Origin: a virus | Reading direction: 5' to 3' (one strand) | DNA length: 64,000 nucleotides | IMG/VR virus record: IMGVR_UViG_3300018004_000004 | Location: 62,001-126,000 of that record | Shown: in pieces, positions 9,187 to 64,000 of the stretch | Layout: the number at the start of each line of letters is the position of its first letter | Position numbering within the stretch: position 1 is the stretch's first letter | The notes under the pieces: generated by a model | Databases searched by the model: none | What the model was told of the DNA's origin: nothing | Seen by the model: the letters and a program-made list of their open reading frames with translations, nothing else | Made by a program: the position numbers and the translations under genes

Positions 9187-9187
9187 A

Positions 9188-9262: not shown

Positions 9263-9296
9263 GTTTAACTTAGTCAAGGTCGGAGGACCAAGTACT

Positions 9297-10194: not shown

Positions 10195-10196
10195 GT

Positions 10197-10271: not shown

Positions 10272-10272
10272 A

Positions 10273-10486: not shown

Positions 10487-10501
10487 TTTTGGAGCAACAC
10501 A

Positions 10502-11133: not shown

Positions 11134-11137
11134 TCTT

Positions 11138-35352: not shown

Positions 35353-36890
35353 TAGCTTATGATGACTGACGAGTAGTCGTCTGTTGCATAGATCGTTCTA
35401 GTGCTAGGATCCCACACATAAGCATCATACGAGATCTTTAGCGGGATTGCGAACTGTCCGGTCCAGGCCCAGAGCTTGTCGTAGGAATCAAACGCAATAC
35501 CCTGTATGCTAGGAACCACAGTGGCCAGACTGATCGTAGTCTTGACTTGGGCCGTGAAGTTTCCGAACGGAAAAGTGTCGGTTGTTTTGGCATTGTACGT
35601 CCCTAATGTTTCCAGGGAGATTAGCCACGTACCAATGACCGTCAGTGGAAACGCTACAGGTGTGGGATAGCCATCATTCCAGCCTCCCGTACCTGAGTAC
35701 TGCTGAAGAATCCCGTTCGGCAGGAGCACATACAGATTGCCATGCGGATCCTCGACGACGTAACGCCATTGCGTTACTGTGGAGGCTTGTGCCATTGCAA
35801 CCGGAGAGATATAGGCATACTTCGTATCCCCAGGCTGATTATAATCATACCACACATTGATAGTGTATGCTGGTTCCGAAGTATGTCCAGTCTCAAGCAG
35901 ATTGGCCGGCATCGGTGTTCTGCGATCGACATAGATCAGATTGGTCCCATCAGTCAAGAATAGGCCGTTAGTATTTGGTTCGACGGCGCAATCCACCATG
36001 GTAGTAGGAAGTTGATATGTCTGGTATGTTTCATACCCAGAGAACCTATTACGCTTGTAGACTTCCTTTAGTGTCACGTCATCTAACTGCCAGAAGCGCG
36101 GGAAGGTAACACCACGGTAGGCAGGATGTGTGAACGGACGATCGATATCCTGCTCGGCCGGGAGCTGAACTCCAAGCACATAACCTATCAGCTGGCAGCC
36201 TACAGGCAATCCTGTAATGCTGATGTTGCTGATTGAATACCATACGGAGTCGGTCTGATAGAAACCATCATCCGAAATGACCAGGACTTCGTTACGAGTC
36301 TTGATGTCCTGCGGCCAGATGGCCGGCGGATTCAGATACCCCGTAATCGAGACACTGAAAGCTGTCGTTACCGAGCCCATCCCGTGTACTGTGAACAAGA
36401 TAGAGTTAGGCAGAGCCAATACACCCGGGTTGAAACTATACGGTGTAACCCCATCCCCAGTCACATTGAGAATCTGAGGGTTTGACAAAGGCACAGCAGG
36501 TACACTTAGATCCTGGTAGATACGCGTAGGCACCGGAAGTGTATCATCATAGGCCCTTAATGTAACCAGAGGGCCTCCAGTTATCTGACCCTGAATCGTT
36601 GTCGGCGGCAGCAAGTTGCCTTGGGCATCATACGGCAGACTAAAGGACAGTGGAACCAGAGCCCCAAAGTATACACCGCTGTTATCTATGTTCATCGGAA
36701 CATCTGATAGATTCAGCGCGCGCAGCTCACGATTGATCTGCATGTTCTGCAGCTCCATCGGATTAGCCACAGCATTCAGGAGCTGAGCAACTACTGTGAC
36801 CGGATTCTCACGAACACGGATGTCAGTATCCGGGTAATAGTTCAGCATCACCTGGGTCAGGTGCGAATAGATTGTTGGCGGTGTGCTCAT
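35352..36890 (-). CDS. Baseplate wedge component, 512 aa
   Basis: ATG at 36890 overlaps the J-type gene's stop. Residues 1-60 are helical (HLTQVMLNYYPDTDIRVRENPVTVVAQLLNAVANPMELQNMQINRELRAL), as in wedge proteins that dimerise around gp6/gp53-like partners. A repeated beta structure with NGLFLTDGTNLIYVDRR and HGNLYVLLPNGILQQYSG suggests a partial beta-propeller. Its tight coupling to the J-type gene supports a wedge role. Confidence 0.7.
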   Translation of the reverse strand: MSTPPTIYSHLTQVMLNYYPDTDIRVRENPVTVVAQLLNAVANPMELQNMQINRELRALNLSDVPMNIDNSGVYFGALVPLSFSLPYDAQGNLLPPTTIQGQITGGPLVTLRAYDDTLPVPTRIYQDLSVPAVPLSNPQILNVTGDGVTPYSFNPGVLALPNSILFTVHGMGSVTTAFSVSITGYLNPPAIWPQDIKTRNEVLVISDDGFYQTDSVWYSISNISITGLPVGCQLIGYVLGVQLPAEQDIDRPFTHPAYRGVTFPRFWQLDDVTLKEVYKRNRFSGYETYQTYQLPTTMVDCAVEPNTNGLFLTDGTNLIYVDRRTPMPANLLETGHTSEPAYTINVWYDYNQPGDTKYAYISPVAMAQASTVTQWRYVVEDPHGNLYVLLPNGILQQYSGTGGWNDGYPTPVAFPLTVIGTWLISLETLGTYNAKTTDTFPFGNFTAQVKTTISLATVVPSIQGIAFDSYDKLWAWTGQFAIPLKISYDAYVWDPSTRTIYATDDYSSVIIS

Positions 36891-38092
36891 TAAGATGCCG
36901 GTATCAGGTTGATCGGATTAGAGATCGAGTACTCAGTTACAATGCGTTCGCCCAAAGCTGGCGTGTAGTCTTGTACCAAGAAGCGGCTGTATCTTGATCC
37001 GTCAGCGCGGCTGCGCCAGATGAAGATACTATTTATAGGATCATCGGGAGTTCCAATGTCAAGGATATTCTGATCAGCGTTGATTATCTGGGCTGCGAGT
37101 TCATTGATGATCAAGGGACTCCCGATGCTTAAGTTGTTGATGTAGTTCTGTGCGGCCGCCACAGCATTTTGAAGGATGCTGGCTTGATTGGCCGAGGACA
37201 CACCGGCAACGAAGGTAACCGTTGTCTCGAGGCTTATACCTACGAGATTCGGCGCCACAGCCAGACCTGTTAGAGGATAGGCTGCTGTGTTATTGATGGC
37301 TGTCTGGACGAGCTGGAGCAAACTTGGAGGGACTTGAGGGGCGATTCCATAAACATAACATGTAAACGTGCCCGCCTGAGGCTGGAAAACAACATTCTGC
37401 ACGCCGGGGACTTGTAGAATAGCGAACTGTAGAGCCGCTTGATTGGCTCCAGCTCTGGATGTGATCTTGAGGTTGATTCTGTAGCGATAGTCATTATCAC
37501 TCTCCGCGTCGGATCCGCCGACCACCCCAAAGTTATTCGTAACAAGCAAGGTGCCGTACTGAGACTGTGCATAGTTCTGGAAGTTGCAAACGTCAATGAC
37601 GCCTGCAGCAATGTTACCTGCGGAGCCTGGTGTCTGACTAGCTGCTGAGAAGAAAGCCGAGCTGGCTGCAGCCACTAGAGTCACAGCTTGGGTAAGAACG
37701 AATACAGGACCACCTGGAGTACTGGAGGTAACGATTGTACCTACAGGCACTATAATATTCTGGCCATTATTGATTGTACCAAAGGTCCCAGAACGAACGT
37801 AGAACTCGAAGTTGTTGTCATCTGGTGTGACTGTGGTATTCGTCTGAGCCAGACGCGTTACACCGAAGATGTCTCCGATCAAATCCAGAGAGCTGCCAGT
37901 AGCATAAGGCAGCAGACTCTGAGACACCATATTGAAACAGTCTGTCTCTGTAGTACCCAGCACATCTCCAACGATGTCAGCGATCGCGCGCGCCTTACCG
38001 CCAGGCGACAGCTGAGTGATAGCTGTAGTTGCCAGAGCGCTTAGGATCTGATTTTGGAATGTAGTCGCTGAGGTAGGTTGCTGTATGGGCAT
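36890..38092 (-). CDS. Baseplate J/gp47-like wedge protein
   Basis: ATG at 38092 lies two bases after the upstream stop. The 400-residue protein fits the baseplate J family: N-terminal helix with SPGGKARAIADIVGDVL, the YATGSSLDLIGDIFGVTRL block (family G.xLD.ig...gv.R), a central beta domain with VPVGTIVTSSTPGGPVFVLTQ, then SDNDYRYRINLKITSRAGANQAALQFAIL and VPGVQNV. It forms the wedge that triggers sheath contraction with gp6-like function. The length of 400 fits the family (about 350-480). Confidence 0.9.
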   Translation of the reverse strand: MPIQQPTSATTFQNQILSALATTAITQLSPGGKARAIADIVGDVLGTTETDCFNMVSQSLLPYATGSSLDLIGDIFGVTRLAQTNTTVTPDDNNFEFYVRSGTFGTINNGQNIIVPVGTIVTSSTPGGPVFVLTQAVTLVAAASSAFFSAASQTPGSAGNIAAGVIDVCNFQNYAQSQYGTLLVTNNFGVVGGSDAESDNDYRYRINLKITSRAGANQAALQFAILQVPGVQNVVFQPQAGTFTCYVYGIAPQVPPSLLQLVQTAINNTAAYPLTGLAVAPNLVGISLETTVTFVAGVSSANQASILQNAVAAAQNYINNLSIGSPLIINELAAQIINADQNILDIGTPDDPINSIFIWRSRADGSRYSRFLVQDYTPALGERIVTEYSISNPINLIPAS

Positions 38093-38501: not shown

Positions 38502-38917
38502 TAGCTTGGGAAACTAGGATCAGCTGCTTGTAGATTGCTGACTGAGCTAGAGACAGTAGCAGCTGAGGACAAAAGACGAGGAGTATCGTTCACGAGGGTT
38601 GGCACCGGAACTGCAGCGCTCGACCCTATACTTGAAAGCTGGACTGGATTGAGAGTCCAATAACCGCAACCAAAGTGGATATTCTCCAATGACTCGGAGA
38701 ACGATGTCGGACCACTGATAGCGATACCGAAGATGTTGTCTACCAAGATGCCAAGGCCCAACTTACTGTACATGGCCGCAGACGCATCATCAATGAAGAC
38801 ATACGGCTGGCCAACCCAATCAGTACCAGCGTGTATAAGCTTAGGAACTTGCGTACCCGGCGGGGCAAACAAGGGTAGTTGTTGGTCATTCACGATCGCA
38901 TTGGCAGGAGTAGACAT
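38501..38917 (-). CDS. Baseplate-region protein, 138 aa
   Basis: ATG at 38917 overlaps the upstream stop. The 138 residues are Ser/Ala-rich at the C terminus (SSAATVSSSVSNLQAADPSFPS), with a central mixed region (VFIDDASAAMYSKLGLGILVDNIFGIAIS). No motif is recognised. It sits between the zinc-type protein and the W-like protein, so it may be a hub or spike accessory. Confidence 0.6.
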   Translation of the reverse strand: MSTPANAIVNDQQLPLFAPPGTQVPKLIHAGTDWVGQPYVFIDDASAAMYSKLGLGILVDNIFGIAISGPTSFSESLENIHFGCGYWTLNPVQLSSIGSSAAVPVPTLVNDTPRLLSSAATVSSSVSNLQAADPSFPS

Positions 38918-39576
38918 TAGGTGCCACCAACTATCCCATGATCATCTGGATTGACCGTATTGAAGGAGTAGGCGAAGGAAGCCTTTGAAACAGTGCCAGC
39001 CACAGGTGTTTCTTGATACTGAACACTGGTAGAGGTAAACGGAGTAGTCATGGGAGGAATACGATGTGATTCTGCCACAACATGATCCATCTCCTGGAAC
39101 GGACCCAGGGTGCGAAGAATATCATGATGCTGTTCCGATACATACGGAAGAAGTCGGCATCTGATGTAGGTGTTATCGAACTTGCTATCGAGGATCCCTG
39201 GAGTCACAACATTCCCCTGGTTATCCACAACGCCTGCATTGTCTTCTACCGCGGCAATCCAGACCAAGTAGTTACCAGTATTCTGATCCACGACAGGATT
39301 CGCAAGTTTATTAGGGTCAGTCGTACCGGAGAGATATAGAACGGGGTCGGGTCCTTGACCGCTATCAGGATCTGCATTTGCTTGCTGCTGAATCCAGATA
39401 CGCCGCGGACAGGAGGTACGGTATGGGTCCGTAGATGTGTCGCCGGCTTTGCTGAAGTTCTGACAATGCGAGCAGGGACTAACTACCGCCAACTCTTTCT
39501 GAGCAGCTGACTTAGTAGAATCCGACGTGCTGGCAATCCTGAGACCTAGCTCAGCGTTGCGTTGATCCTTTGCCAC
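38917..39576 (-). CDS. Baseplate-region protein with CxxC, 219 aa
   Basis: GTG at 39576 follows GAGGAGGTAGAT and the TATACTAATCAG element, so it is likely the first gene of a transcription unit. The 219 residues contain SPCSHCQNF and TSCPRRIWIQQQ, three cysteines that could bind metal, and a globular rest (KFDNTYIRCRLLPYVSEQHHDIL). I recognise no family. The location before the small baseplate genes suggests a hub or spike-associated protein. Confidence 0.65.
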   Translation of the reverse strand: MAKDQRNAELGLRIASTSDSTKSAAQKELAVVSPCSHCQNFSKAGDTSTDPYRTSCPRRIWIQQQANADPDSGQGPDPVLYLSGTTDPNKLANPVVDQNTGNYLVWIAAVEDNAGVVDNQGNVVTPGILDSKFDNTYIRCRLLPYVSEQHHDILRTLGPFQEMDHVVAESHRIPPMTTPFTSTSVQYQETPVAGTVSKASFAYSFNTVNPDDHGIVGGT

Positions 39577-39612: not shown

Positions 39613-42600
39613 TTAGATAAGACCCATATTGCGAGCCTGGCGGAACGAGAACATAAGGGGCTCGATTTCGTCTTCCTTGAAATACTGCCACTTTGTCTGC
39701 AAAGTACCCAGAACATCATCCACCTTCCAGCCTTCTAGACCTGAAATCCAGGGTCTCTGGAAACGAGTAAGTGGAGCAATACCCATTGGATTGAGGCGGT
39801 TAACTATCTTACCGGTCCAGAAGATAGCTGCTCCGCCTGCTAGCGCGGCCGGCACAGCAATCCATGGACTGATAGCCGCGGCGCCAATCAAGGCAAGAAT
39901 GCCTAACTCCGCCTCAACCACAGGCAAGTTGGAGCTATTGATTAGAGGATTGTGTATCGTCCAGCCTTCAATCTGGGTTTCCATTCTGGTCAGCATATCC
40001 CACACAGCCTGGTGTATAGGCATGCTCAGCTTATCGTTGATCACGACAAACGCGCGCGGACGTACGATCGTAATGAAACCAGTCTCCTGATTGAATGAGT
40101 GGATCACACTATCAACTTCGACCGGGCCCGAGATGCCGGTGGAAGGATCCAGAAGCATCAGGACATCGAAAGGCTCGATCTCTGGGTTGCCAAGAAGTAC
40201 CAACTCACCACGATAAGCCTTAGCCAGTTCATCACGCAAAAAGCTCTGCATGTAGGCATTCGTATAAGGCGTATCGCCTTTGATGTTCTTCTTGTCCACA
40301 ATGAACGGATCAGCGAGCAACATACGACGATACTGCGAGGGTATCGCTTCATTGGCTGGTAACGTCTGATTCACCAAGCGGACTGTATTGTAAAAGTTCT
40401 CATTCAGATTGATACCGTTATGAATGATGTTATCACCATTCACTAAGTGCCAACGACGGACGGGCTTCATACGAGCATTCACAGCCAGATTAGCACCTGG
40501 TTGAGTCTGTTGATTTAGCCAGGTGTAGTAGTTCTGGACTAGTTGCTGAAGACCTTGTTCTCCCTGGAATGGAGAGATTGTTTTGCCAGGAGACGTGCCT
40601 ATAACCAGGCCAAGAGAAGAAACATTACTTGCCATCTGCTGCGCGAAGATGTTAGTGATGTTGAAGAAGACTCCAGGCCCACCACCATTGATGTAACCTA
40701 TCATCTTGTCAGCGGCCGCATTAGGACTTTGTAAAGTTGCACCTACAGTAGCTATAAAGAAAGTATAGAACTCTGAGCCTTCTGTGGCGCCATTCAGAGT
40801 ATATTCATATTGGTTCTCTGCACTAGAAGCCCATTGAGAACCAACACCGTTGCAGAAAGCCCTGAACTGAGCCTGTCCACTATTGGTACCACCTGTCCAC
40901 CAGAGATTAAACTGGATCGTATCTGAAGCCGCTTGCTGCTGCAACTCGACCTCGCCTGGGACTGGCGTACGCGAAGAATAGAAATCATGTGGATTAGCAA
41001 ACACAAGGGTAGCATCCGCAGTATATGGAAAACCATATTGCTTAACGGCGAGAATGAACTCAGGATAGCGACGAGCAATATCCTGGATATACGTCCAAGG
41101 AGTCATAATAGAATCCTTGGGGATGTAGTACTCTGGCGAACCGTAGCCGCCTGGCAGTTCATACCACCACGTACGAGCTCCACCCTTTGCATCAGCTATA
41201 GCTGTACCATCTGGTCCAAAGATGTGTGTTGTTAGGATATTCTCAAAGCTACGATCGTAGCCTGATTCTAATCCAGTTGCCCCAGCCGTCAGAGGTGAAC
41301 TGCTAGCCAGAATCAAAACCGAACCCAGCAGGGTGTTCCAGTTATGGCCCTTGATGTAGTGATCCGTCGGAGCGCCAAGCTGCCAACGACCAAAATGCTT
41401 AGCTGTGCTGACACTCAGCATGGCACTCATAACGTCAGCCACAGTCCCACCTGGAGAGTTAAGGCCAGGAATCTTGTAGCCTCCAACAGTACTGTTGCCT
41501 CCGAAGGCAGGTGTGTTACCGAAGATACCACCAAGCAAATCACCTGGGATACTAGGTATATTGCTAGGAAAATCACGAACACTCTTTACAAGAGCATTGG
41601 TCAGCTTGTTGATACGCCCATCAACCGTAAATCCATCCTTACGGATCTCATCTTGGGCCGGCACAACTAGCTCCAGCATGTAGCTCTGGCAGACGATCGA
41701 GAGGATCTCATCACCCTCGATTTGTGTTACCTGGCCGGTAAAGACAGGCACAAGCAAATCAGGATTATTCGAGAACCCCATGCGCACCTGTACCTTAGTA
41801 CCGGTCTGTAGAGCAAAATAACGAAGCGGGAACTTGTTATCGACCTGGCGATTCGATGTGGTAGTATCAACAGGACGATGGGCCGCGATCTGAGGGAATC
41901 GATTATCAAGAGTCCATGCATCAGCTGTGGGCTGATTGATATCCATACTAGCCACACCACCAGCAGGGATGACAAGCTGCTGATCGGCTGGTATGTTAGT
42001 TGTTACCGGCGCGTGCAGTCTTGCTTCCTGGCGGCCTTGCGGCGTACCGTCAAACATGTGTTGATCCAACATGTGCAGGAGATTGGAGACCTGAATGACC
42101 GCTGTGTCGGGTCTATCCCGATAGCGAATGATCTCCATATCAAGAACCGTAGCATACGAGTAGAAGTTATCGTAAGCGTAGAACGGTTTCTGCGCGTTGT
42201 CTTCCATCAGGAACAACTTGAATGTGGGGAATGCCTTGGACATCGTGTAGCTAGAAGGCTTAACATTTGAAATGATAGCCTGTGCATTACCCGTGAAGGA
42301 TGCTGTATTTGTATGAACCAGCTTCCCTGTATCGACATTAGGGGTTACTTGTTCGAAGTTTGTTACCGAAGTCATTGTCTGCGAAACAATGGAAGTGATC
42401 TGCTTCTGCATGCTGGCAATCAGGTCAGCATTGTCATCATGGAAGTACATGGCCGGATTGTTATCGCGGCCGACGTATGTAACATCTTTGAGACCCATAT
42501 CCAGATAGCACGAGTGTCCTGGGAGCTGAGCATTACCAGGTGTGGTAATCGTCTGTGTTGTCACAAACATAGGTTTCAGCTGTGGAGACGACTGCGCGCG

Positions 42601-45468
42601 TTGCATTTGGTCACGAATCAACTGATAGTTGTTAGCATAGGCAAAACCCACAAACTGATCCCATAGCTGATTGACCGGTGACTCTAAAGCAGGATCTGCA
42701 GCCAGAGCTGCAGAGACACGGGCATCAATATTCTTGGAGTAGGTTTGAAACAGCTGATAATCCGGCAGCTCGGATAGAGTTGGCCAGTTCTTAATCAGGA
42801 AATAGTCGGAATAGTTTAACTGACCACCATGACTCTTGATTCGATTCGCTATATCTGGGAAGTCTTCGGTGAAGGTATTATCTCTCAGACCTGTTAGGCT
42901 GCTTGGAAACTCATCTAGCAACTTAACCATCAGCAGTTGCTCCTGTTGCTCGAAAGGAGCAGGAGACAGCACATTGTAAGCTTCACTAGAGATAGGAGGA
43001 GGAGCCAGAAAATGCGTAAGCGCTTGCTGCACCGCTGTGCCTAATGCAACACCCCCAATAGCACCTGATACTGCACCTCCGGCTGGTGTTACAGTCGGTG
43101 ATTGCTGAGTTAACCAGTTCCACAAGAACTGATTAGCTTCTGCTCCAGTAGCAGTAGTCCCTGTCACTGAAGAAACAGCGGTCGATACTGTATTTGAGTA
43201 CGTCATCATCTTTGCCAAGTTCACCAAGGCAGTGAGCGATGTATCACCAGAGAAGTCATTGACGATCGTGCCGTCACGCAGGATCTTCAGCCAGATTTGA
43301 GAGAATCCAAAGGGTGTTGTATTCACCTGATATGGATTTGGACCCTCAGCATAATAGACGTTCTCATATTGAATGGCATTGTACTGGGCAGTTACTTCAC
43401 TTGCTGCTTCAGGTATAGTCTCAGTTGTCAGTTCCTTTGTCAACAAGCCGCGAATACCCAGCATGTTAAGGACTTGGTTCTGGACTGCTATCGATTGCAT
43501 ACGATGAATAGAGTTCACACGGCGCCACTCATTGCGCAGGCTCTGGAACTGATCTTCCAGCATCTTAGTCATATTGGATAGCAAGCTGAGTCCAGTATGT
43601 TCCGGTTCCGGATAACTATCAGCTTCTGGGATCTTGGCATTCGACAGCAACCCAACAGATACCAATGTAGACCCAGGACCCAAGTGCTGATAGGTAGGAT
43701 ATTGATATCCAGCCAATGGTATCTGAGAGATGTTATTGACGAACACAACGGAGATCTGCATCGGATAGATAAAGTGTTCTGGATCTATATCTTCGATATC
43801 CGAGCTGGCCGGCTGATCATCATTCTCCTTCGCTGTCATCTTGATGTAGTGTTCTTTGTATAGGAACGCAGCAGACTCAGTAGCATAATCATACGTATAG
43901 TTGTTGTTCAACAGATAGCGAATCTGCGTTGTCATCGGCGGTGGGGTTGTCGCAGTCGGTGGCGGGTTGGTTGAGTTAGAAATGTTTGGAGGTGTGTTTG
44001 TGTTATTACCGCTTACCACTGGAGTGGTATTCGTTGCCGGGTTAGGATTACCAGCAGGCGGTATTGTACCTTCCTGAGGAGTGAAAGCATTTGGATCATT
44101 CGATAGTGTGCGGTAAGTATTCGTAGCCTTCGTGAACCAAGTGTTATCCATACTTGGAGAACCTTGTCCATTATTCACGATGCCTTGTCCAAAACGATGT
44201 GCTTCCCAAGCCGACAGAGCAGAACCATTGTTAGCACGCAGCTTGAGAATAGCCCAACCTGTAGCCATGTCATTCTGAAGCTGGGCTTGTCCACCTGTGA
44301 TAGGCGGGCTCATCATCCAAGAGATATAGGTTGCCAATACAGGATCTGTTGACTGCGGACTTGGAACAGACTTAGAGCCCCAGTTGTATCCATTGTTGGT
44401 ACGAGCAGCAACTAGATAACCACTCTGCACAGCCACAGAAACATAGTGTGTGCCAAGATAAGTATCAGCTGCCTTCATAGCATCAATAGCAGCCGCGCGC
44501 ACCCACTGCAGAAGACCTACTGCAGCCGAAGGCTTGCCGGTATTGGTCACTGTAGACTTGTTGATCGCCGAATAGTTATTATTGGATTCCGGAAAGGCAG
44601 CAGACTTCACCCACCACTGAATAGCAGGATTATGGATATCAGTTGTGTCGATAATGATGTTATCTACGAAGTTTCCAGCGCTGGCTTTCCCCTGCGCAGC
44701 AGTACCTTGTCGAGTGGCTCCAGGATTGGCTGGATTGAGGGCTCCAGATCCGGCCGGCGGAGGATTGAGACCTGTATCGTTAGGCAGTGCACAAGCAGCA
44801 TACTCGCGCGCAGTAAACGTAATACTACCAGGTATTTGTCCCTGCCAGTTCGTGGAGGAGACAGTCATACCTGTATCAGGCTGTTGGGTAGGATCACTAT
44901 TCAGATTCGTCTGGATCCAGTTCAACAAGTAAGCTGTGAAAAGTGGCGAGTTCAGAGCACTGGAAGTAGAGTTGCCTGTCCAATCATCATACTGGAAGTT
45001 CTTGGAGTACGGACGATAGTTGAAGTACGACATCGTCATGGTAACTTGCAGTGTGTCAATCAAATCAGGATTAGTTTCCACACGCATCTGACGCAGAGCA
45101 AAAGCCATAACGTCATCTGCAGTAGCTCCTTGAGTTAGAACTGCAGGGTTCACGATCTGACGGATATGATCGTTCTCTACTTCAACGAAGGGAGCAGCCT
45201 TAAACATAGCCAGGAGCATCTGTACATCAGTCCATGCTGAGTAGTCGGCATTATCATAATCAGCAACGCACTTCCAAGTCCACGTTACATCCCAACGCGA
45301 CTGACCAGTCTTGATAGGAATAGCGAACGGGAAGCGCAGAGGCATAACCTCTTCTCCGTTGATAACCTTGTGGCACTGAATCTGTTCCGGAGGAATGTTC
45401 AGTACAAGGTTACCAATACGGAAGTATCCCGCTTGATTGTCATCTCGAGTTGTGATTATCTGTCCCAT
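39613..45468 (-). CDS. Giant baseplate hub with lysozyme-like insert, 1951 aa
   Basis: ATG at 45468 overlaps the upstream stop. The 1951-residue protein has, in order: an N-terminal tube-adaptor-like domain (residues 1-180); a lysozyme/SLT-like region near 285-410, with PESNNNYSAIN (candidate catalytic E294), SAAVGLLQW and ALSAWEAHRFGQG, like the E..G..Q and AYN.G motifs of soluble transglycosylases; Pro/Thr-rich linkers; a gp27-like hub domain near 1220-1265 (GTKVQVRMGFSN, PVFTGQVTQIEGDEILSIVCQSYMLEL); and a C-terminal hub domain near 1700-1810 (AYMQSFLRDELAKAYRGELVLLGNPEIEPFDVLML). It is likely a fused central hub that opens the cell wall. Far longer than T4 gp27 (391 aa). Confidence 0.78.
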   Translation of the reverse strand: MGQIITTRDDNQAGYFRIGNLVLNIPPEQIQCHKVINGEEVMPLRFPFAIPIKTGQSRWDVTWTWKCVADYDNADYSAWTDVQMLLAMFKAAPFVEVENDHIRQIVNPAVLTQGATADDVMAFALRQMRVETNPDLIDTLQVTMTMSYFNYRPYSKNFQYDDWTGNSTSSALNSPLFTAYLLNWIQTNLNSDPTQQPDTGMTVSSTNWQGQIPGSITFTAREYAACALPNDTGLNPPPAGSGALNPANPGATRQGTAAQGKASAGNFVDNIIIDTTDIHNPAIQWWVKSAAFPESNNNYSAINKSTVTNTGKPSAAVGLLQWVRAAAIDAMKAADTYLGTHYVSVAVQSGYLVAARTNNGYNWGSKSVPSPQSTDPVLATYISWMMSPPITGGQAQLQNDMATGWAILKLRANNGSALSAWEAHRFGQGIVNNGQGSPSMDNTWFTKATNTYRTLSNDPNAFTPQEGTIPPAGNPNPATNTTPVVSGNNTNTPPNISNSTNPPPTATTPPPMTTQIRYLLNNNYTYDYATESAAFLYKEHYIKMTAKENDDQPASSDIEDIDPEHFIYPMQISVVFVNNISQIPLAGYQYPTYQHLGPGSTLVSVGLLSNAKIPEADSYPEPEHTGLSLLSNMTKMLEDQFQSLRNEWRRVNSIHRMQSIAVQNQVLNMLGIRGLLTKELTTETIPEAASEVTAQYNAIQYENVYYAEGPNPYQVNTTPFGFSQIWLKILRDGTIVNDFSGDTSLTALVNLAKMMTYSNTVSTAVSSVTGTTATGAEANQFLWNWLTQQSPTVTPAGGAVSGAIGGVALGTAVQQALTHFLAPPPISSEAYNVLSPAPFEQQEQLLMVKLLDEFPSSLTGLRDNTFTEDFPDIANRIKSHGGQLNYSDYFLIKNWPTLSELPDYQLFQTYSKNIDARVSAALAADPALESPVNQLWDQFVGFAYANNYQLIRDQMQRAQSSPQLKPMFVTTQTITTPGNAQLPGHSCYLDMGLKDVTYVGRDNNPAMYFHDDNADLIASMQKQITSIVSQTMTSVTNFEQVTPNVDTGKLVHTNTASFTGNAQAIISNVKPSSYTMSKAFPTFKLFLMEDNAQKPFYAYDNFYSYATVLDMEIIRYRDRPDTAVIQVSNLLHMLDQHMFDGTPQGRQEARLHAPVTTNIPADQQLVIPAGGVASMDINQPTADAWTLDNRFPQIAAHRPVDTTTSNRQVDNKFPLRYFALQTGTKVQVRMGFSNNPDLLVPVFTGQVTQIEGDEILSIVCQSYMLELVVPAQDEIRKDGFTVDGRINKLTNALVKSVRDFPSNIPSIPGDLLGGIFGNTPAFGGNSTVGGYKIPGLNSPGGTVADVMSAMLSVSTAKHFGRWQLGAPTDHYIKGHNWNTLLGSVLILASSSPLTAGATGLESGYDRSFENILTTHIFGPDGTAIADAKGGARTWWYELPGGYGSPEYYIPKDSIMTPWTYIQDIARRYPEFILAVKQYGFPYTADATLVFANPHDFYSSRTPVPGEVELQQQAASDTIQFNLWWTGGTNSGQAQFRAFCNGVGSQWASSAENQYEYTLNGATEGSEFYTFFIATVGATLQSPNAAADKMIGYINGGGPGVFFNITNIFAQQMASNVSSLGLVIGTSPGKTISPFQGEQGLQQLVQNYYTWLNQQTQPGANLAVNARMKPVRRWHLVNGDNIIHNGINLNENFYNTVRLVNQTLPANEAIPSQYRRMLLADPFIVDKKNIKGDTPYTNAYMQSFLRDELAKAYRGELVLLGNPEIEPFDVLMLLDPSTGISGPVEVDSVIHSFNQETGFITIVRPRAFVVINDKLSMPIHQAVWDMLTRMETQIEGWTIHNPLINSSNLPVVEAELGILALIGAAAISPWIAVPAALAGGAAIFWTGKIVNRLNPMGIAPLTRFQRPWISGLEGWKVDDVLGTLQTKWQYFKEDEIEPLMFSFRQARNMGLI

Positions 45469-48400
45469 TAGGATTCCAGTTGTTCTCGAATCGTCTCACG
45501 ACGGCGGAGAGTACTCATCTTGTTTCTCCATCCGTTGCGATAGTTCACATTGATATTTGATACACCATTATTGCCAGAGATCTGACTAATCATACGTTGC
45601 ATTTCAATCGTATCCTGGCGATTCTGAGCCTTCATTCTTACTTCCAGATCTGTACGCTGGCGCATTGGCGCCACGATCGTTGTAGATGTACCACCGCGCA
45701 GAGGAAGCTGACGACGAGGTGGGTTAACAGAAGACATAGCACCGGTTATTGGCTCGCCCGGGACCTGATCTGTTACAGTCTCAGTAGTTTCTGGTCTGAA
45801 GTTCCCACGCGGCCGACCGAAAGTAGCCTGCGTCGGAGTAACCTTCTTGACATGGCTGGTAAGAACTGCTCCTACAGCCGCGGCTCCGACTCCAATAGCC
45901 AGAACACCTAGGTTACCTTTGGACTCTCTGTAAGTACTCTTGAGACCCTCATTGATGGCGCCGAGGACTTTGGAAACAGACATCCCCGAGCCTTTCTCGC
46001 GCGCCAGGCCAATCAGCCAAGGAGGAGGCGTACCCATCTCCTTGTACAAGGCCTGCAGACGATAGAGGGAATCACCCTCCATATCCGTAGTTGCCTTAGT
46101 CAGAAGTTCGGCAGCACGATCTGCCCTAACATTACGCCCTATGATAAACTCGGAGAGTGTTCCTTGGAACTTCTCGGAGTCCAGCACGTCCATCAAAACA
46201 TTCCGCTTGGTGCCGGGAGCTACCCTCATCCCAGTAAGCTCTTCAAACAAAGGAGCGGTCTCTGCAGTAATGATCGATTCCTTACCGTAGCCAGAGATAA
46301 CTTCCCTCATACCCTCGGTGAACTTAGCTACACCTTCCGGCGTGCGAGATTCCAAGCCACCTACCAATCTTCTGTACAATCCCAGAGGATCCTCAGGATT
46401 CAACTTCATCTTGCCCTTCTGGGCAGAGATAGGTACCTGACGGATCGTCCACAGCATGTGACCGAGGATATCTCTTTCCATCGGCTTCACACCGATTGTA
46501 GGATGCATCTCGACGTTCATGTACAAGCGAGTCAGTAAGTTAGAGTACGCACCAACCACACCACCAGCCATACGCTGTGTGACTTGTTCTGCTCTTCCAC
46601 CTGCACTAGCCAACTTAAGACTTTCTTCAAGCATAGAAGGCAGAGTCTTCACACCAGCTTCTGCGATGTTACGTGAGTCTTCAACGCTCCCGTACAGCAT
46701 CTCAAGAGTCTTCAGGCTTCTCCACTGGTTGCTATTCAGAGCATTGATAGCAGCCTGGGCTTCACGTTCGGCTTGAGAACCCTTGCGATAGAAGAACAGA
46801 TTCAGGATATCCTTATCGTCATCGGCGCCGAACAAGCCACGGATGCGCTCATCCATACCGACCATGTTAGGACCCATGCCAGCATCAGGAGCCACCTTCA
46901 CACGCATGTAAGGAGCTGACTGAATAGGGTGACGAGCAGCCGTAGCGTAGATATCTTCTCCGGCGAGTAATGCTTTACGGATCTCTGGGTCGCGGACTCG
47001 GCCGGCCATCTGCTCATTGATAAGGAGTTCAAATGGGTTTTCCTGGGCGCGCGTCTGAATGAAACCAGACACAGCTCCCAAGACATCTGTACCACGGGCA
47101 CGGTAGAATCCTTCCTTCCCGAACAGTACACGCTGGGCTTCATCAAGGTGAGCGGAGATCGCCGCGGACATCATAACGGGATCCTTCTGCCACTTGACTA
47201 CGTCCGCCAGCGTCTTTTCATAATCCGTGGGGCTATAAGTAAGACCCTCACCAACCTTTTCATAGAGGTTGCTACCACCGCCGTGTGCCAACTTACCAAG
47301 GACAGGAATGTGAGTAACTTCAAGGTCACGTCCAGCCACACGTGCGTACACCGGCTGATCAAGTTTGATAGAAAAGTTCTCTTGGACGAGCTTATTTGAG
47401 GGATCAAAGATACCTCCAACTCGGCCTTCCATCGTGCCTATTCTGAGATTGGCTGCAGCCTCCTCTATGGGGATAACAGTCCCCAGAGACTTGGTGAAGT
47501 CACCACCTACGAACTGGGCAGCAAAAGCAGAAGCTCTTCCCGGATCGCCACCATGGAAATCCAAGCGGCTCATCAACTCCTTCATACCTTCCACATTACC
47601 AGCTCTCCACATCTCGGAGAACATATCGTATGTGGCGCCGACCATCTGAGGTACATTACGGCGAGTGCTATCCCAGAACGCCGCAAAGGAGAACATGGCG
47701 TTCTTCTGCATGTAGTTCATCAGACTTTCTTCACCGCTACGTCTGAAGGCAGAGAAGAGCTCACCCTCGGTCCCAGGAGCACCACGCTGAGCAAAGCCAG
47801 CAACATCACGCAGGTAGTCTTCTGTAAGTTGACCCACCGACTGCATACGGAGTCGACGGCCCTCCAGATCCAGGCTGCGTACGTATTCCGAATCTTCGAG
47901 CAGATGGAAGACGTTATTTCCAGTACCAGTACGCTGCGCGCGAATACCCTGAGCAGCAAGATCAGCCATGTACTTATTGACACGATCCAATGCTTCCAGG
48001 TTTGCCCAGTCAGCCTTTAGATGCACACTGTTAGCAGCAATATCGCTAGACACAGCAGCTGCTTGCGATACCATAAGGCGGAAAGGATCGCTAGTCTTAG
48101 CTTGCATGTAGTGTAGCGGAGCTAGAGCTTCCACAAAGCTAGGGATAGCAGTCTTAGATCCAGTAGCTTCACCGTATAGATTCAGCAGCTCGACCTGGCG
48201 ACGGAAGATGTCTTCCTCGGGTACGATAGCCAGACCCTTCACGCCAGCGATGTCAATCTTGGCTCCTGTCTCTACTGGATACTCTTGACGCAGCTTGAGC
48301 TCGAACTGGCCGCTAGGTGTAGTGGACCAGCCTTCTATGAATGTAGAAGGAGCTTCCGACGTGACAGGATTCAAACCCTCAAATCCGATTAGTGTCTCTG

Positions 48401-50237
48401 GGCTAAGGGACTTTTTGATGTAATCCTCGGGGTTGAGATGAAGCTTGTCGACGTAGACGTTCTTACGCGACTCCATCTTCAGCCGGCGGAACTTCTCGTG
48501 AAGGATAATATCACCTTCACCCAACCCACCCAAGCCACGGCCGGCTTCTAGATAGCCCTTCTCGCCGAGCTTACCACTGATCTTACCCCAAGCAGCCTCT
48601 GCCTGGGCGCGTGTCATCTTTGGATTGTCGGCCAGTATGCGTTGGATAGCAGTCTCTTTATAGCCAGCCAATCCTTCTGCTGTTTTCGGCAAGTCGCCGA
48701 ACAGCGACTTCTGTTGTGGCGACACACCAGCCACGGACATCTGTATTTCCGGAACACCTCCGATGGATTCAACCGCGGAAGTTGTAAAGCTTGGACGGAA
48801 CTCCTCACCAATGGTCTCAGCTTTCAGCTGCAAGTCCTTGGTGAAGGATCTATAGAAATACGTTTGCTTAGCGAGCGAAGGCGCACCTCCCGGGATGTAG
48901 AGTTCCGATTCAGCGAACTCGAACACACCTTTCGATGTGCCTCCCTCAGAACCAATGCGAGTCATACCACGACCCAGCATCTTGATAGTGTACTGGATCC
49001 GTTCCAGGTCTGACAGATCCTCAAATGCCTTGCCTCCATAAATAGGCAAGCTGCTAGGAATAGCAGCGCGAGAACGGATATACAGAGCTTGTGGAGAAAG
49101 GTTAGCAAGCTGGGATTCAAGACGTGTTTGAAGCTTGAATGGATCTTCGGGGACCACGCCGCCGAAATAAGCAGCACGACCAATATCACCTTTCAGCTTT
49201 CCCCAATCCTGAGTCAGGTGTTCAGCAACGAATGTATCCAGTTCGAATACTCGTTCTGGCGTGTGAATGTGGCGCCCGACTCCAACCTTGCCTTCAATGT
49301 TGACGGATCCTGTCTTGGGATCAAACAGAGGGATATGAAGCTCGCCCTTTGGACCCTTGATGTTGACACCCAGCATACGGCCGACAGTTCCATCTGCCAC
49401 CTGCTCGGCAACGACCGTAGCAGAGGACACCTGTCCCTGACGGATCGCGCGCTGAATAGCATCAGCTACTTCTGGACGCTGACCGTGCAACTGACCATAA
49501 GCTTCCAGCCACTCCATACTAGTAGTCTTACCAGTCATGCTCATCTTGAGTGGATTGGCAAACGGACCGAGATCCTTGAGCTTCTTGGCCCAGCCAAGAC
49601 GGCTACTCAGCTCCTTGACGAAGCGGGGATCAGCTCTATTGGCGTTGACGATACCACGGAGCTCTGACTCTGCCATGCCGGCCAGAGGACCTCCGCGCGC
49701 AACTCTAGTAAGATCTAGCGGAGAAGCTACCCGCTGTCTGGCGCCTTCCACAGCATAGGTAAGCAGATCACGCTTGTTAGACATGCCCAGAAGCTCATGA
49801 AAGAGGTTCTCCGCCTGCTCCATGCTCTTCTCGATCGGTGGCCCACCGCGGTCAACCTGGCTGAAGAAATCTACGGCCGCATTGTCGGCCCAGGTACGGA
49901 AGATGGGATTGAGAGCTCCTGCACCCCCACCTGTCTTTTCCAGAGCTGAACGTAAGTCCTTGAATCTAGTAGCTTTATTGCTACCAAAAAACATAGGCAT
50001 CTCACGTGCGAACTGCATGCCAGCTCGAGCTGTACGGGAGGCAGATGTTACCAAGCCCGGGCCGGCAAGACCCATAGCCGCTACAATAGGGGTAGTTATG
50101 ACGGCAGTCCGGAAGTAACCGCGGTTCTCATCCTTAAGGAAAATAGGGGCCGTAGCCGAGGCAAAGGCAGTGGCAAAGGCCACACCTGGATGTTCAGTTG
50201 CAAGGCTTTTAACGGCTTTTAGGAACCCGGTAAACAT
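45468..50237 (-). CDS. Giant tail/ejection protein with RNAP-like DxDxD signature, 1589 aa
   Basis: ATG at 50237; the stop overlaps the hub start. Hydrophobic segments lie near the N terminus (residues about 18-70, VAFATAFASATAPIF, AVITTPIVAAMGLAG) and C terminus (LGVLAIGVGAAAVGAVL, about 1455-1475). Residues 1100-1165 resemble the active-site region of double-psi beta-barrel RNA polymerase beta' subunits: RHP at 1102-1104, GADDDKD with D1139, D1141, D1143, and AEREA ending at 1160. In E. coli beta' the RxP is at 425, D460/462/464, and EA at 479-480, so spacings are 37 versus 35 and 17 versus 16. VGAYSN and ISAQKGK follow, comparable with motifs of single-chain polymerases. A virion RNA polymerase or ejected protein is proposed; tape measure is the alternative. 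Confidence 0.6.
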   Translation of the reverse strand: MFTGFLKAVKSLATEHPGVAFATAFASATAPIFLKDENRGYFRTAVITTPIVAAMGLAGPGLVTSASRTARAGMQFAREMPMFFGSNKATRFKDLRSALEKTGGGAGALNPIFRTWADNAAVDFFSQVDRGGPPIEKSMEQAENLFHELLGMSNKRDLLTYAVEGARQRVASPLDLTRVARGGPLAGMAESELRGIVNANRADPRFVKELSSRLGWAKKLKDLGPFANPLKMSMTGKTTSMEWLEAYGQLHGQRPEVADAIQRAIRQGQVSSATVVAEQVADGTVGRMLGVNIKGPKGELHIPLFDPKTGSVNIEGKVGVGRHIHTPERVFELDTFVAEHLTQDWGKLKGDIGRAAYFGGVVPEDPFKLQTRLESQLANLSPQALYIRSRAAIPSSLPIYGGKAFEDLSDLERIQYTIKMLGRGMTRIGSEGGTSKGVFEFAESELYIPGGAPSLAKQTYFYRSFTKDLQLKAETIGEEFRPSFTTSAVESIGGVPEIQMSVAGVSPQQKSLFGDLPKTAEGLAGYKETAIQRILADNPKMTRAQAEAAWGKISGKLGEKGYLEAGRGLGGLGEGDIILHEKFRRLKMESRKNVYVDKLHLNPEDYIKKSLSPETLIGFEGLNPVTSEAPSTFIEGWSTTPSGQFELKLRQEYPVETGAKIDIAGVKGLAIVPEEDIFRRQVELLNLYGEATGSKTAIPSFVEALAPLHYMQAKTSDPFRLMVSQAAAVSSDIAANSVHLKADWANLEALDRVNKYMADLAAQGIRAQRTGTGNNVFHLLEDSEYVRSLDLEGRRLRMQSVGQLTEDYLRDVAGFAQRGAPGTEGELFSAFRRSGEESLMNYMQKNAMFSFAAFWDSTRRNVPQMVGATYDMFSEMWRAGNVEGMKELMSRLDFHGGDPGRASAFAAQFVGGDFTKSLGTVIPIEEAAANLRIGTMEGRVGGIFDPSNKLVQENFSIKLDQPVYARVAGRDLEVTHIPVLGKLAHGGGSNLYEKVGEGLTYSPTDYEKTLADVVKWQKDPVMMSAAISAHLDEAQRVLFGKEGFYRARGTDVLGAVSGFIQTRAQENPFELLINEQMAGRVRDPEIRKALLAGEDIYATAARHPIQSAPYMRVKVAPDAGMGPNMVGMDERIRGLFGADDDKDILNLFFYRKGSQAEREAQAAINALNSNQWRSLKTLEMLYGSVEDSRNIAEAGVKTLPSMLEESLKLASAGGRAEQVTQRMAGGVVGAYSNLLTRLYMNVEMHPTIGVKPMERDILGHMLWTIRQVPISAQKGKMKLNPEDPLGLYRRLVGGLESRTPEGVAKFTEGMREVISGYGKESIITAETAPLFEELTGMRVAPGTKRNVLMDVLDSEKFQGTLSEFIIGRNVRADRAAELLTKATTDMEGDSLYRLQALYKEMGTPPPWLIGLAREKGSGMSVSKVLGAINEGLKSTYRESKGNLGVLAIGVGAAAVGAVLTSHVKKVTPTQATFGRPRGNFRPETTETVTDQVPGEPITGAMSSVNPPRRQLPLRGGTSTTIVAPMRQRTDLEVRMKAQNRQDTIEMQRMISQISGNNGVSNINVNYRNGWRNKMSTLRRRETIREQLES

Positions 50238-55238: not shown

Positions 55239-55559
55239 TTACACACTGAAGCTCTTACCACAGCCACACTGGCTGCGCACATGTGGATTAGTAAACCTAA
55301 ATCCAGATGCGTCTAGGCCTTCGATGTAGTCTACAGATACATCCTCAAGATACATCAAGCTCATTGGGTCCACGACTACTTTCACGGGACCAAACTCAAA
55401 CAGTTCCCAGTCCGGCTCGTATTCATCAACGAGACCGATAGAGTATTCGAATCCGGAGCAGCCGCCACCTTTCACACCAAGGCGGACGAACGGCCGATCT
55501 GGGTTATCTTTGAGGACGCTGACGAGCTTGTCCTGGGCGGCGATTGAAAGCTGGATCAT
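55239..55559 (-). CDS. A-type Fe-S cluster carrier (IscA/ErpA/HesB family)
   Basis: ATG at 55559 follows GGAGAGAAGGA, a strong ribosome binding site inside the end of the upstream gene. The 106-residue product matches A-type carriers: MIQLSIAAQDKL, GVKGGGCSGFEYSIGLVDE with C34, then VVVDPMSLMYLEDVSVDYIEG and NPHVRSQCGCGKSF with C98 and C100. The C-x63-C-x-C spacing is the family's cluster-binding triad. These proteins hand [2Fe-2S]/[4Fe-4S] clusters or iron to target proteins in the cytoplasm. Length 106 is normal for the family. It lies between the tail-assembly genes and the giant tail proteins, all in one direction, suggesting a virion or virion-assembly client. Confidence 0.93.
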   Translation of the reverse strand: MIQLSIAAQDKLVSVLKDNPDRPFVRLGVKGGGCSGFEYSIGLVDEYEPDWELFEFGPVKVVVDPMSLMYLEDVSVDYIEGLDASGFRFTNPHVRSQCGCGKSFSV

Positions 55560-56070
55560 TCCTTCTCTCCAATGCTATTTGCTGCGCATCTGTGAGCTGC
55601 TTTTTCTTTCGTTGTAACTTGCTCTTAGAATCCTTGACAGACTTAGGATCCATCGGGTTGAGTGGCACGCCCGACACAAACTCAGCTTGGGCCAAGCGAG
55701 TAAGGAGTGTTTCCGAATCCCAGCCATCCATCACCTCGAAGGGGATCTTGAATACAGATGCTATGAAGGCCTGTGCGCACAACAGATAAGAGTCTGTTAC
55801 CTTCTTGCGCGCGTTCTCCAGCGGTAGAGACAGCGTCTGGAAAGATCCAGAGAACGGGCTCTTCTCAAGCTGGTCCTTGTAAATCCACATCATGATCCCG
55901 GCCGGAATCTCTTCCGGCCGCGGACCGTGGACGACACACAACTTATAGACGTGTAGGGCTACTTCAGCGGGAGGCCCTTGACGAGAACGGGCATCTCGGT
56001 ACTCTCCCCAAGTAAGATCACGCCAGACTACACGTGTCCCACTGGGCCAAGTGGCGGCCCTAGTTGTCAT
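55504..56070 (-). CDS. Tail assembly chaperone candidate, 188 aa
   Basis: ATG at 56070 is three bases after the previous stop, and the 3' end overlaps the Fe-S carrier by 56 bases. The protein is helical, with WRDLTWGEYRDARSRQ, a central region (AQAFIASVFKIPFEVMDGWDSETLLTRLAQAEFVSG) and a basic, probably disordered C terminus (KLQRKKKQLTDAQQ, RRPGQARQRPQR). Many myoviruses carry two tail-assembly chaperones before the tape measure, often linked by a frameshift; here they are separate frames. Position supports the role; the sequence alone does not prove it. Confidence 0.6.
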   Translation of the reverse strand: MTTRAATWPSGTRVVWRDLTWGEYRDARSRQGPPAEVALHVYKLCVVHGPRPEEIPAGIMMWIYKDQLEKSPFSGSFQTLSLPLENARKKVTDSYLLCAQAFIASVFKIPFEVMDGWDSETLLTRLAQAEFVSGVPLNPMDPKSVKDSKSKLQRKKKQLTDAQQIALERRNDPAFNRRPGQARQRPQR

Positions 56071-56073
56071 AGA

Positions 56074-56553
56074 TTACAGCTCGGCTGAAAGGAACTCGAT
56101 CTGCTGTGGATCCATGAAATCCGACAGCTTCGTTACCTTCGTGAAGAGGGTGGCCGGGAGGCCAGCAGTGCCATTGCGCAACCGAACGTCGGTCAGCTTA
56201 CCATTCTCGCCGGCATTGGTCCAGACAACAGCCTTGATAACGGCGTGGAGTTGCATTTCGAGTTCAGCATCCGCCACTGGAGTTGCCATGTTTTGGATCT
56301 GCTTTTGGATTGTGGTCAGCTCTAGACCGGTCAGTCCGCGGACAATGTAAGCACGCTTACCGTCGGGAGTAAAGAGTTCGAGTCTGTTGTTAGGGGCTTG
56401 CTGCTTCCATGCAGCAATCTGATCCTTCGTCGGAGCCCCAGGCAGGGATGCTAGGAACTCGTGTGGATCCATATTGGAACGGTCTACAGGCTTGGTTTCG
56501 CCTGGAGTACCAGTACCTTGTACTTCTACTTCTGCTTCCGGATTGTGTGTCAT
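56074..56553 (-). CDS. Tail assembly chaperone candidate, 159 aa
   Basis: ATG at 56553 follows CAGGAGAATCTAG. The 159-residue protein has an acidic, disordered N terminus (PEAEVEVQGTGTPGETKP), then a folded part with LELFTPDGKRAYIVRGLTGLELTTIQKQI, an EMQLHAVIKAVVWTN helix and a C-terminal helix TKVTKLSDFMDPQQIEFLSAEL. The short strand-rich start with KRAYIVRGLT is similar in style to tail-assembly chaperones encoded between tube and tape measure genes. Assigned mostly by position. Confidence 0.6.
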   Translation of the reverse strand: MTHNPEAEVEVQGTGTPGETKPVDRSNMDPHEFLASLPGAPTKDQIAAWKQQAPNNRLELFTPDGKRAYIVRGLTGLELTTIQKQIQNMATPVADAELEMQLHAVIKAVVWTNAGENGKLTDVRLRNGTAGLPATLFTKVTKLSDFMDPQQIEFLSAEL

Positions 56554-60017: not shown

Positions 60018-62483
60018 TTAGCCGTTCAGGTTAATACCGATTGTGGCATTCAACTGAACCAGCTCATTTGCAGGAACGAAGCTGATCTGGATTGAAGCCT
60101 GACCAATCTTCTGCTGAGCTGGAGTGGATGTGATCGTGAAGTTGTAGCTCGAGAGATAACCGCGCTTCTGGAGGTTCAAGCAGTCGGCGTCAAGAGCAGT
60201 CTTCAAGGCCACCAAGGACAAACCATCGTTGGTTCCGTTGCCAATGTAGTTGTTGGCCTCTCCCAGAACTGTCTGGATGACCAAGAACTTGATGCGCTGA
60301 CGGAGAGCCAGAGTATAATCGCTTGCCACTGTTGCCGCGGTCTTGTCGATCAAGGCAACCGGCAGAACACCCACACCCTTGTAACGAAGCATGTTGATGT
60401 CTGCGAATGTGAGAGCATCGAGCTGGTTGAGGCTTGCACGATAGAGCTGCTGTGCACCCGCAACTGGCTTGTTGGTAACTGCCTTCTGCTGGTCGAGCGT
60501 GCTGACCAAGCCGGCGATGATACCAGCAATGTTGCCGACGTAAGTGCCGTAGCCGTTCGACAGGAGAGCGTAATCACCCTGTGGACAGAGATAAGCACCC
60601 ATATCAACCTTGTAGCCGTTGCTGTCGATTTCCGGGCCACCATCGTACTCACCCGAGTCTGTATCAAACAGACCAGGCAGACGGTAACCATTACTCCAGT
60701 CGGCGCATGCCGAGTTCAACGAGCTGGCGCTGCAGCCAACCAACCAAGGAGTACCCAGCAAACCGCCACCTGACGTTGCCGGATTACCTGTGACCGGGTT
60801 ATAGGTCGGCAGATAGCCGATCCATGCCTTCACAGCCGGGAGCGAGAAGTTGCTCAAGCTTGCGGGACCACCAAAGCCGATGAAGCCGAGGCAGCCGCCA
60901 TTGTCAGCCTGAGGAGCTTCGCTCTGATTGAAGCAGAAGCGCGCGAGCTGATAAGCGAAGTTGACTTCGTGGAATCCGGACTGTTGGACTGTTCCACCAG
61001 CGCCGACACCAGATGCCAAACGAGTAGCAGCAGTGGAGAAGCTGAACACAACAGGAGTCGTCGGAGAAACCTGACCCTGAAGCAGAGCAGAAGCCAGCTG
61101 CTGGTTGTTGGAGTTGTAGAAGTGAGCATCCGAGGCCCACTGATAAATAGGATTGCCGGAGGCGTCAACACCAGTCCACAACCAGTCAAGAGCGTTGGGG
61201 TTCGTAACTGGATTGTTGATGGCTGTCGAGGCGCCTGTATAGAACGCAACGTTCGGGTTGTCACCGAGAGCGCCAGGAGTGATTGCTTCATCGATCGGGA
61301 AGCCCTGGAGCAGGTTGATTGCATTCTGTTGTGCGATGTACAGCTGGCGGCCAGTGAGACCGATACCTGTGATTGGCGCGACGTATACTGCACCACCACC
61401 GATGTTCTGGATCTCAACAGCATTTGCCAAACTGTCTGTACCAGTACCGATTGCGGTACCAGCAATAGCAGAACCTGTAACCTGGGAATCACCAGTGTTC
61501 AGGATTGCGGAGCTGCCTGTCACGGCCGGGTCGTTAGACCAGACCACCTGGTTATCAAGCCACAGAGAGAGCAAGCCGTTCTTGTACCACACGCTGTAAC
61601 GCGAGTTGGCATCTGCTTCGACCTGGCCCAAAGTGATGAGTAAGCCAGGATATGCAGCAACCGGCTGCTGGCCGTAAGCTGGAGTTGCAGACAGAGTACC
61701 TGCTGTAAGAGTGTAAGGACCGCCCACTGTGAAAGGACCAGCAGCAGTCAATACGATATCGTGTGTACCAATGCTCAGAACTTCGTACACTCCGTCCAAA
61801 GCAGACGAAGGAGAACCAAGACCAGCATCAGTCAAACCTGCCAGTGTAACCTGGGCGCCGACCACAACACCCGCAGTAGGAGAACCAGAATAATGCAGAT
61901 CAACTGTCGTTGCAGTCAATGCTTGAACTGTCTGGAAGTTAGCAAACGTATCTGCGATCGCCGTTGGAGTTTCAATAGCGTGATCAGGCGAACCAATCTG
62001 GTCCACCAGGATTGTGTTGCCAACGACCTGTGAAATCGGCTGTGCTGCGATATTGTAACCGGCGAAGGAGAAACCTGTTACTGTAAGAGGAGCCCCATCA
62101 ACCAGGTCAGCAGTCGGAGGAAATGCAGTTGTGTAGGTGATAACACCATCAGACAGAACTGCGCTAATGATGGCATTGTTCGGACCAAAACCGGATCCAG
62201 AAGTTCCAACCAGAAGAGTGCCCTGAGCAGTACCGACGCGCATCAGGTAAACATTGTCGCAGTATACGGCCGCTTCAGACATCCCGCGGATTAGCGTACC
62301 TTGCAGCCCGAAAAGAGTGGTTGCTGTAGCAACGCTTACAACCTGATAAGGGCTGTTTGCGGGTCCAGTCGCGGAGGTACCAAGGACCATGATGGATTGA
62401 TTTGTTGGGGTGTTAACGGCGGCCAGACCACCGTCTACGGTCTGTACCTGGACACCCGGCAGATTTGCAAAAGTGAAGGACAT
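60018..62483 (-). CDS. Tail sheath protein
   Basis: ATG at 62483 follows CCGGAGGAAAAG. The 821-residue protein starts FTFANLPGVQVQTVDGGLAAVNTPT, the sheath N terminus that links neighbouring rings, and ends with the conserved contractile core: TFADINMLRYKGVGVLPVALID, LRQRIKFLVIQTVLGEANNYIGNGTND, ALKTALDADCLNLQKRGYL, and QIGQASIQISFVPANE-style strands. About 200-250 extra residues in the middle (beta-rich, Gly/Ala/Thr-rich) make it longer than T4 gp18 (659 aa). It contracts to drive the tube through the envelope. Confidence 0.93.
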   Translation of the reverse strand: MSFTFANLPGVQVQTVDGGLAAVNTPTNQSIMVLGTSATGPANSPYQVVSVATATTLFGLQGTLIRGMSEAAVYCDNVYLMRVGTAQGTLLVGTSGSGFGPNNAIISAVLSDGVITYTTAFPPTADLVDGAPLTVTGFSFAGYNIAAQPISQVVGNTILVDQIGSPDHAIETPTAIADTFANFQTVQALTATTVDLHYSGSPTAGVVVGAQVTLAGLTDAGLGSPSSALDGVYEVLSIGTHDIVLTAAGPFTVGGPYTLTAGTLSATPAYGQQPVAAYPGLLITLGQVEADANSRYSVWYKNGLLSLWLDNQVVWSNDPAVTGSSAILNTGDSQVTGSAIAGTAIGTGTDSLANAVEIQNIGGGAVYVAPITGIGLTGRQLYIAQQNAINLLQGFPIDEAITPGALGDNPNVAFYTGASTAINNPVTNPNALDWLWTGVDASGNPIYQWASDAHFYNSNNQQLASALLQGQVSPTTPVVFSFSTAATRLASGVGAGGTVQQSGFHEVNFAYQLARFCFNQSEAPQADNGGCLGFIGFGGPASLSNFSLPAVKAWIGYLPTYNPVTGNPATSGGGLLGTPWLVGCSASSLNSACADWSNGYRLPGLFDTDSGEYDGGPEIDSNGYKVDMGAYLCPQGDYALLSNGYGTYVGNIAGIIAGLVSTLDQQKAVTNKPVAGAQQLYRASLNQLDALTFADINMLRYKGVGVLPVALIDKTAATVASDYTLALRQRIKFLVIQTVLGEANNYIGNGTNDGLSLVALKTALDADCLNLQKRGYLSSYNFTITSTPAQQKIGQASIQISFVPANELVQLNATIGINLNG

Positions 62484-63876: not shown

Positions 63877-63878
63877 GG

Positions 63879-64000
63879 TTATCCATTGCCTACAAGTGTC
63901 AAGCAAATATCTGCAAGTGTAGTATCCGGTGTGACTGGGCCGTCTATTTCTAGTAGATCAGTAGCAAGAAAAGACGAATCTGAAGCCTGTGTAAACGTCG
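63879..64000 (-). CDS. C-terminal end of fibre-like protein, 5' truncated by window
   Basis: Only the last 40 codons are inside the window, ending at TAA 63879-63881. The visible part, TFTQASDSSFLATDLLEIDGPVTPDTTLADI, is a diverged copy of the C terminus of the fibre at 20031-21251 (FTQASNQAFAPGDLLEIDGPATPDTTLADV). So a third protein with this end domain is encoded upstream of the neck genes. The N-terminal part cannot be judged. Confidence 0.75.
   Translation of the reverse strand, partial: TFTQASDSSFLATDLLEIDGPVTPDTTLADICLTLVGNG

Follow-up and report, generated by a model that had tools for sequence, protein, structure and literature searches.

An A-type iron-sulphur carrier gene between tail chaperonin and structural genes of a 0305phi8-36-type jumbo phage

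In Bacillus phage 0305phi8-36 the tail genes follow one another as a two-gene chaperonin (orfs 143 and 144), structural protein 145, tape measure 146 and hub 147 (PMC2147016). Viral genes for A-type iron-sulphur (Fe-S) carriers (ATC) are likewise known: marine phages with ATC or IscU genes also carry many Fe-S enzymes, and a supply of both viral and host Fe-S proteins is favoured by the authors (PMC5332604). Fe-S clusters themselves occur in tail hubs, as described in PMC10276861 for roseophage R4C and hubs of the lambda gpL type. The locus considered here touches on all three subjects. It lies in a stretch of 64,000 nucleotides (the window), which is part of a 215,395-base IMG/VR virus record (IMGVR_UViG_3300018004_000004), and a preliminary description had read it as an A-type carrier gene embedded in the morphogenesis block, which suggested a client in the virion. 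The first part of this reading stands; the second finds no support.

The ATC gene is real, and its product is an A-type Fe-S carrier by family and by its intact ligands. The whole protein matches PF01521 (E 3.8e-18; 66.2 bits against a cut-off of 26.3) and TIGR00049 (103.8 bits against 58.8), and the translation from the minus strand contains the motifs MIQLSIAAQDKL...GGGCSGFEY...CGCGKSFSV. The positions given earlier for the gene were right, to which the strand can be added, and the translation bears out the A-type arrangement of C34, C98 and C100. This arrangement, C-x(63)-C-x-C, is invariant in the two related phages that carry the gene at the same place (L100 and L109). An HMM built without these three proteins scores the window ATC at 121 bits (E 4e-37), while the other 370 stop-to-stop frames of the window reach 5 bits at most and the best of 2000 shuffles reaches 8 bits; the match is therefore not a chance one. 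The nearest solved structures are bacterial A-type proteins, e.g., E. coli IscA (1r94), and the protein resembles IscA, SufA and ErpA in length, fold family and the three ligand cysteines. It differs from them in its location in a tail operon, in a genome without an IscU gene, and in its distance from the bacterial and other viral copies found, none of which shares more than about 48% identity with it. The equivalog cut-offs were likewise not reached for IscA (90.3 against 150.6), ErpA (88.3 against 117) or SufA (87.6 against 136.2). Most plausibly, judged from its sequence, it is a putative functional Fe-S cluster carrier encoded by the phage.

The genes around the carrier (Table 1) run in the order 159 aa, 188 aa, carrier, 1641 aa, 1589 aa and 1951 aa, and by this order the tail block is of the Bacillus phage 0305phi8-36 type. 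The preliminary description was thus correct in placing the gene inside a morphogenesis block, with the tail chaperonin on one side and the gp145-like structural gene on the other. Searches with the tail genes reached three cultured phages, ME3, KLEB27-3 and Moorella phage MTATph1, which share with the window the succession of tube paralogs, two-gene chaperonin, structural protein, tape measure and hub. The known members of the type lack both the ATC and an exonuclease-like domain that lies at the N-terminus of the 1641-aa protein of the window. A virion structural protein whose gene adjoins that of the tape measure thus includes this domain; its profile matches are restricted to a weak one to RNase T (E 0.1), with none in Pfam. 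Its catalytic residues are conserved in two related phages (L109 and L110), and the domain is absent from L108, L111 and the cultured relatives. In the Bacillus phage KLEB27-3 (L101) a 212-aa hypothetical gene, which may be an inserted element, divides the gp145-like structural gene into two parts.

Table 1. Positions of the carrier gene, the surrounding tail module and further features of the window.
Position	Strand	Feature	Basis or remark
1610-11483	plus	25 tRNA calls and a tmRNA gene, tag AEFEELPLAA	ARAGORN
14605-14988	minus	Vsr/MTES_1575-type endonuclease-like gene	just below Pfam cut-offs; near tail-fibre genes
36890..38092	minus	baseplate J-like protein	PF04865, E 8e-23
38917..39576	minus	four-cysteine protein, 219 aa; C35, C38, C56 and C140 conserved	conserved in relatives lacking the ATC
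39613..45468	minus	baseplate hub (gp147-like), 1951 aa	tblastn: ME3 baseplate hub, KLEB27-3 baseplate protein, MTATph1 endolysin
45468..50237	minus	probable tape measure protein (gp146 position), 1589 aa, 0 Cys	follows the gp145 homolog in relatives; PMC2147016
50308..55233	minus	virion structural protein (gp145-like), 1641 aa, 0 Cys	homology to structural proteins of ME3, KLEB27-3 and MTATph1
54376-55233	minus	DEDDh exonuclease-like domain (LDVETTG ... WNVKYD ... YHEAVTD)	residues ~1-290 of the 1641-aa protein
55239..55559	minus	A-type Fe-S carrier (ATC), 106 aa; C34, C98, C100	profiles, motifs, purifying selection
55504..56070	minus	second gene of two-gene tail chaperonin (gp144-like), 188 aa	homologs in L102 and L107-L111; role by position and 0305phi8-36 synteny
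56074..56553	minus	first gene of tail chaperonin (gp143-like), 159 aa; no frameshift pair	homologs and order in relatives; PMC2147016
59229..59927	minus	tail tube protein (query for relatives)	annotated tail tube homologs in KLEB27-3; alignment
60018..62483	minus	tail sheath	homology to ME3 tail sheath
63241-63906	minus	neck-region protein with CxC...CxxC set, zinc-like	conserved in relatives

At its start the ATC gene overlaps the last 56 nt of the second chaperonin gene, which is the tail-assembly gene of the overlap reported earlier, and the start codon of the 1641-aa gene follows 5 nt after the ATC stop. The strong ribosome-binding site attributed to the gene is present in the window, where TTGGAGAGAAGGA-ATG is a good Shine-Dalgarno context. 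It is not conserved in L109, where the ATC start and the stop of the gene before it instead overlap as ATGA. On the other side, the junction ATC-TAA-TATGC-ATG(gp145) is identical in the window, L100 and L109, and the carrier-less L108 reads gp144-TAA-ACATGC-ATG at the same junction. A consensus scan called neither a promoter nor a terminator at the ATC on its own strand, in which the gene departs from a classical moron. Embedded in this way, it is most likely made together with the tail genes, late in infection.

Alignment of tail tubes identified 59 viral loci of this tail type, including the window's own virus; a second IMG/VR contig, identical over the stretches compared, was treated as the same virus. 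Within the tail type the ATC occurs only in the window's virus, in L100/L107 (IMGVR_UViG_3300014159_000140) and in L109 (IMGVR_UViG_3300044802_000078), always between the homologs of the 188-aa and 1641-aa proteins; L100 and L109 are represented by partial genomes of 12.8 and 25.4 kb. The next sister, with an 84% identical tail tube, the more distant relatives and the three cultured phages all lack it. The comparison of synteny proposed in the preliminary description therefore places the gene at one and the same junction in both of the nearest carrier-bearing relatives and nowhere else in the related records searched: with PF01521, neither the 58 related records, many of them fragments, nor the three cultured phages yielded a carrier at any other place, and the junction of chaperonin and structural gene is directly visible in 12 carrier-less loci among those listed. 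One further match to this profile (L105) belongs to an unrelated carrier-bearing virus.

In a tree of eight concatenated tail proteins the phages with ATC form one clade (99/99), below which the carrier-less L108, L110 and L111 branch successively, and a single gain is thus the simplest history. Confinement to one clade, absence from the junction in relatives and a clean boundary are what moron-like cargo should display, and the gene was most likely gained once in this lineage by a moron-like insertion, as far as trees and junctions indicate. The three carrier proteins likewise group as a single clade (SH-aLRT 97) in a tree of 209 carriers from viruses and bacteria, which has 120 columns and is poorly resolved outside this trio. 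We name no host donor; the best bacterial matches, of about 48% identity, fall in Limnobacter and Acidobacteria without converging on one source.

Comparison of the window with L109 and L100 outside the overlap gave dN values of 0.30 against a dS of 1.8, and of 0.19 against 2.3, the dS values being near saturation and approximate only. With dN this far below dS, the protein is under purifying selection. Within the trio neither the three cysteines nor the motifs GGGCSGF and CGCGKSF vary, whereas the remainder of the protein has diverged to 58-71% identity. Between the window and L100 the dS of the whole ATC gene (1.06) exceeds that of its neighbours (0.32-0.67). The first 20-odd codons are nearly identical and mostly doubly coded with the chaperonin, and part of the contrast in divergence is due to this double coding. 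The abrupt divergence after codon ~22, with identity regained at the stop, suggests that ATC alleles may have been exchanged.

Carriers are not rare in viruses, and hundreds were found in viral contigs. Among the best 80 loci, a rough count of sequence motifs within 2 kb gave IscU-like genes at 27, ferredoxin-like genes at 8 and tail genes with NDGTGD/NESTG motifs at 12, some of the latter matching tail-fibre or baseplate-wedge PHROGs. A class II RNR lies beside the carrier at three loci (L025, L029 and L030); a homologous RNR is present in the window's virus, far from its carrier. No structural genes in common with the window were found among these 80 loci. Most matches in isolate phages are apparently bacterial sequence under phage names, or bacterial contigs; only two huge-phage genomes look genuine, and in them the carrier lies outside the tail block. 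Like the marine viruses with ATC/IscU auxiliary genes (PMC5332604, PMC9038755, PMC10580990), the window's virus has an ATC and also encodes Fe-S enzymes, likely ones in its case, in other parts of its genome. In contrast to other viral carriers, often accompanied by IscU or ferredoxin, RNR or tail-fibre genes, its ATC stands alone between the tail chaperonin and the gp145-like gene. Virus-borne carriers as such are already known; it is this position that is new for an A-type carrier.

The position invites the interpretation that the phage loads its own tail with Fe-S, the ATC being a dedicated maturation factor of a virion metal site that is co-translated with the tail chaperones. We regard this as very doubtful, and the broader alternative, in which the carrier matures a metal site in some tail, baseplate or neck protein (the 219-aa protein with four cysteines or the CxC/CxxC neck protein), as scarcely less so. 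Both could draw on the conserved junction that sets the ATC next to the tail chaperones, on two conserved four-cysteine proteins within the structural block and on the Fe-S hubs of roseophage R4C and the gpL type (PMC10276861). Carriers in unrelated phages also adjoin tail-fibre or baseplate genes, and a location among structural genes alone is therefore no evidence for a client in the virion. The neighbouring giant proteins, in which a search for cysteine clusters had been proposed, contain no cysteine at all in 1641 and 1589 residues and are rejected as clients. Both four-cysteine sites are retained in relatives without the ATC and are equally zinc-like. In particular, the 219-aa protein, with a spacing of C-x2-C-x17-C-x83-C, has no sign of a gpL hub domain; nothing in Pfam, PHROGs, NCBIfam, PDB sequences and isolate phages matches it, and profile searches found no relative of known structure. 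It is the best candidate for a virion metal site on its cysteine pattern, though not linked to the ATC. Likewise, no gpL-like client was recognised in the window phage, which differs from the lambda gpL precedent in its contractile tail and gp27-like hub. No cysteine cluster among the tail proteins is tied to the presence of the carrier, the homologs of the hub and the 219-aa protein lying beyond the L100 and L109 contigs. Only C216 of the neck protein tracks the ATC, being present in the three phages with the gene and missing from the three nearest without it; as one of about 30 cysteine columns in six related phages, 6 residues from the C-terminus, it is judged a chance association. Should a client in the virion prove right after all, this would be the first phage known to us that loads a metal site in its own tail, with a bearing on the Ferrojan idea of iron in phage tails.

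The auxiliary, moron-like reading fits better, although clients among the phage's own enzymes do not follow from gene content. The genome contains three radical-SAM matches, two of them above the Pfam cut-off as whole proteins, a UDG-superfamily protein (PF03167) with a family-4-like cysteine pattern, which we take to be of family 4, and a candidate Cas4-like nuclease recognised by its cysteine pattern (C..CxxCx5C) only; all are likely Fe-S enzymes. As radical-SAM genes (10/20) and UDG genes (11/20) are common in relatives without the ATC, these genes alone do not predict the carrier, and we reject a tie between it and the phage Fe-S enzymes. The same observation would agree with a narrower role in which the ATC sustains Fe-S enzymes of the host, in respiration or isoprenoid synthesis, and no phage protein. 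Viral ATCs are indeed widespread in many contexts, many of them adjoining IscU and ferredoxin, but the late expression expected of a tail operon is a poor time for remodelling host metabolism, and we consider so narrow a role unlikely. Far less credible still is a moonlighting part of the tail chaperone complex, with the ATC fold as assembly factor and its cysteines incidental: the 56-nt overlap with the chaperonin gene, to which its translation seems to be coupled, would suit it, yet cysteines and both motifs are invariant amid the divergence of the trio, and all more distant relatives with the same chaperonin dispense with the ATC.

We therefore consider it reasonably probable that the ATC is an Fe-S carrier gained once, moron-like, between the chaperonin and the gp145-like gene of this jumbo phage lineage, and that it is made with the tail genes and serves Fe-S apo-enzymes. 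In its favour count the likely Fe-S enzymes encoded by the phage and the supply role preferred for marine phages with ATC/IscU (PMC5332604). As a late product it would receive Fe-S clusters from the ISC or SUF machinery of the host, the phage having no IscU of its own, carry them through Cys34, Cys98 and Cys100 and hand them to apo-enzymes of phage or host, which might thus be kept working as host protein synthesis fails. The exact position of a metabolic helper in the tail operon is explained by this reading only as insertion history.

This case shows that an Fe-S carrier gene can settle as a fixed single copy in a contractile-tail operon and be maintained there by purifying selection, and the handling of Fe-S clusters by viruses is not confined to the metabolic gene clusters of marine T4-like phages.
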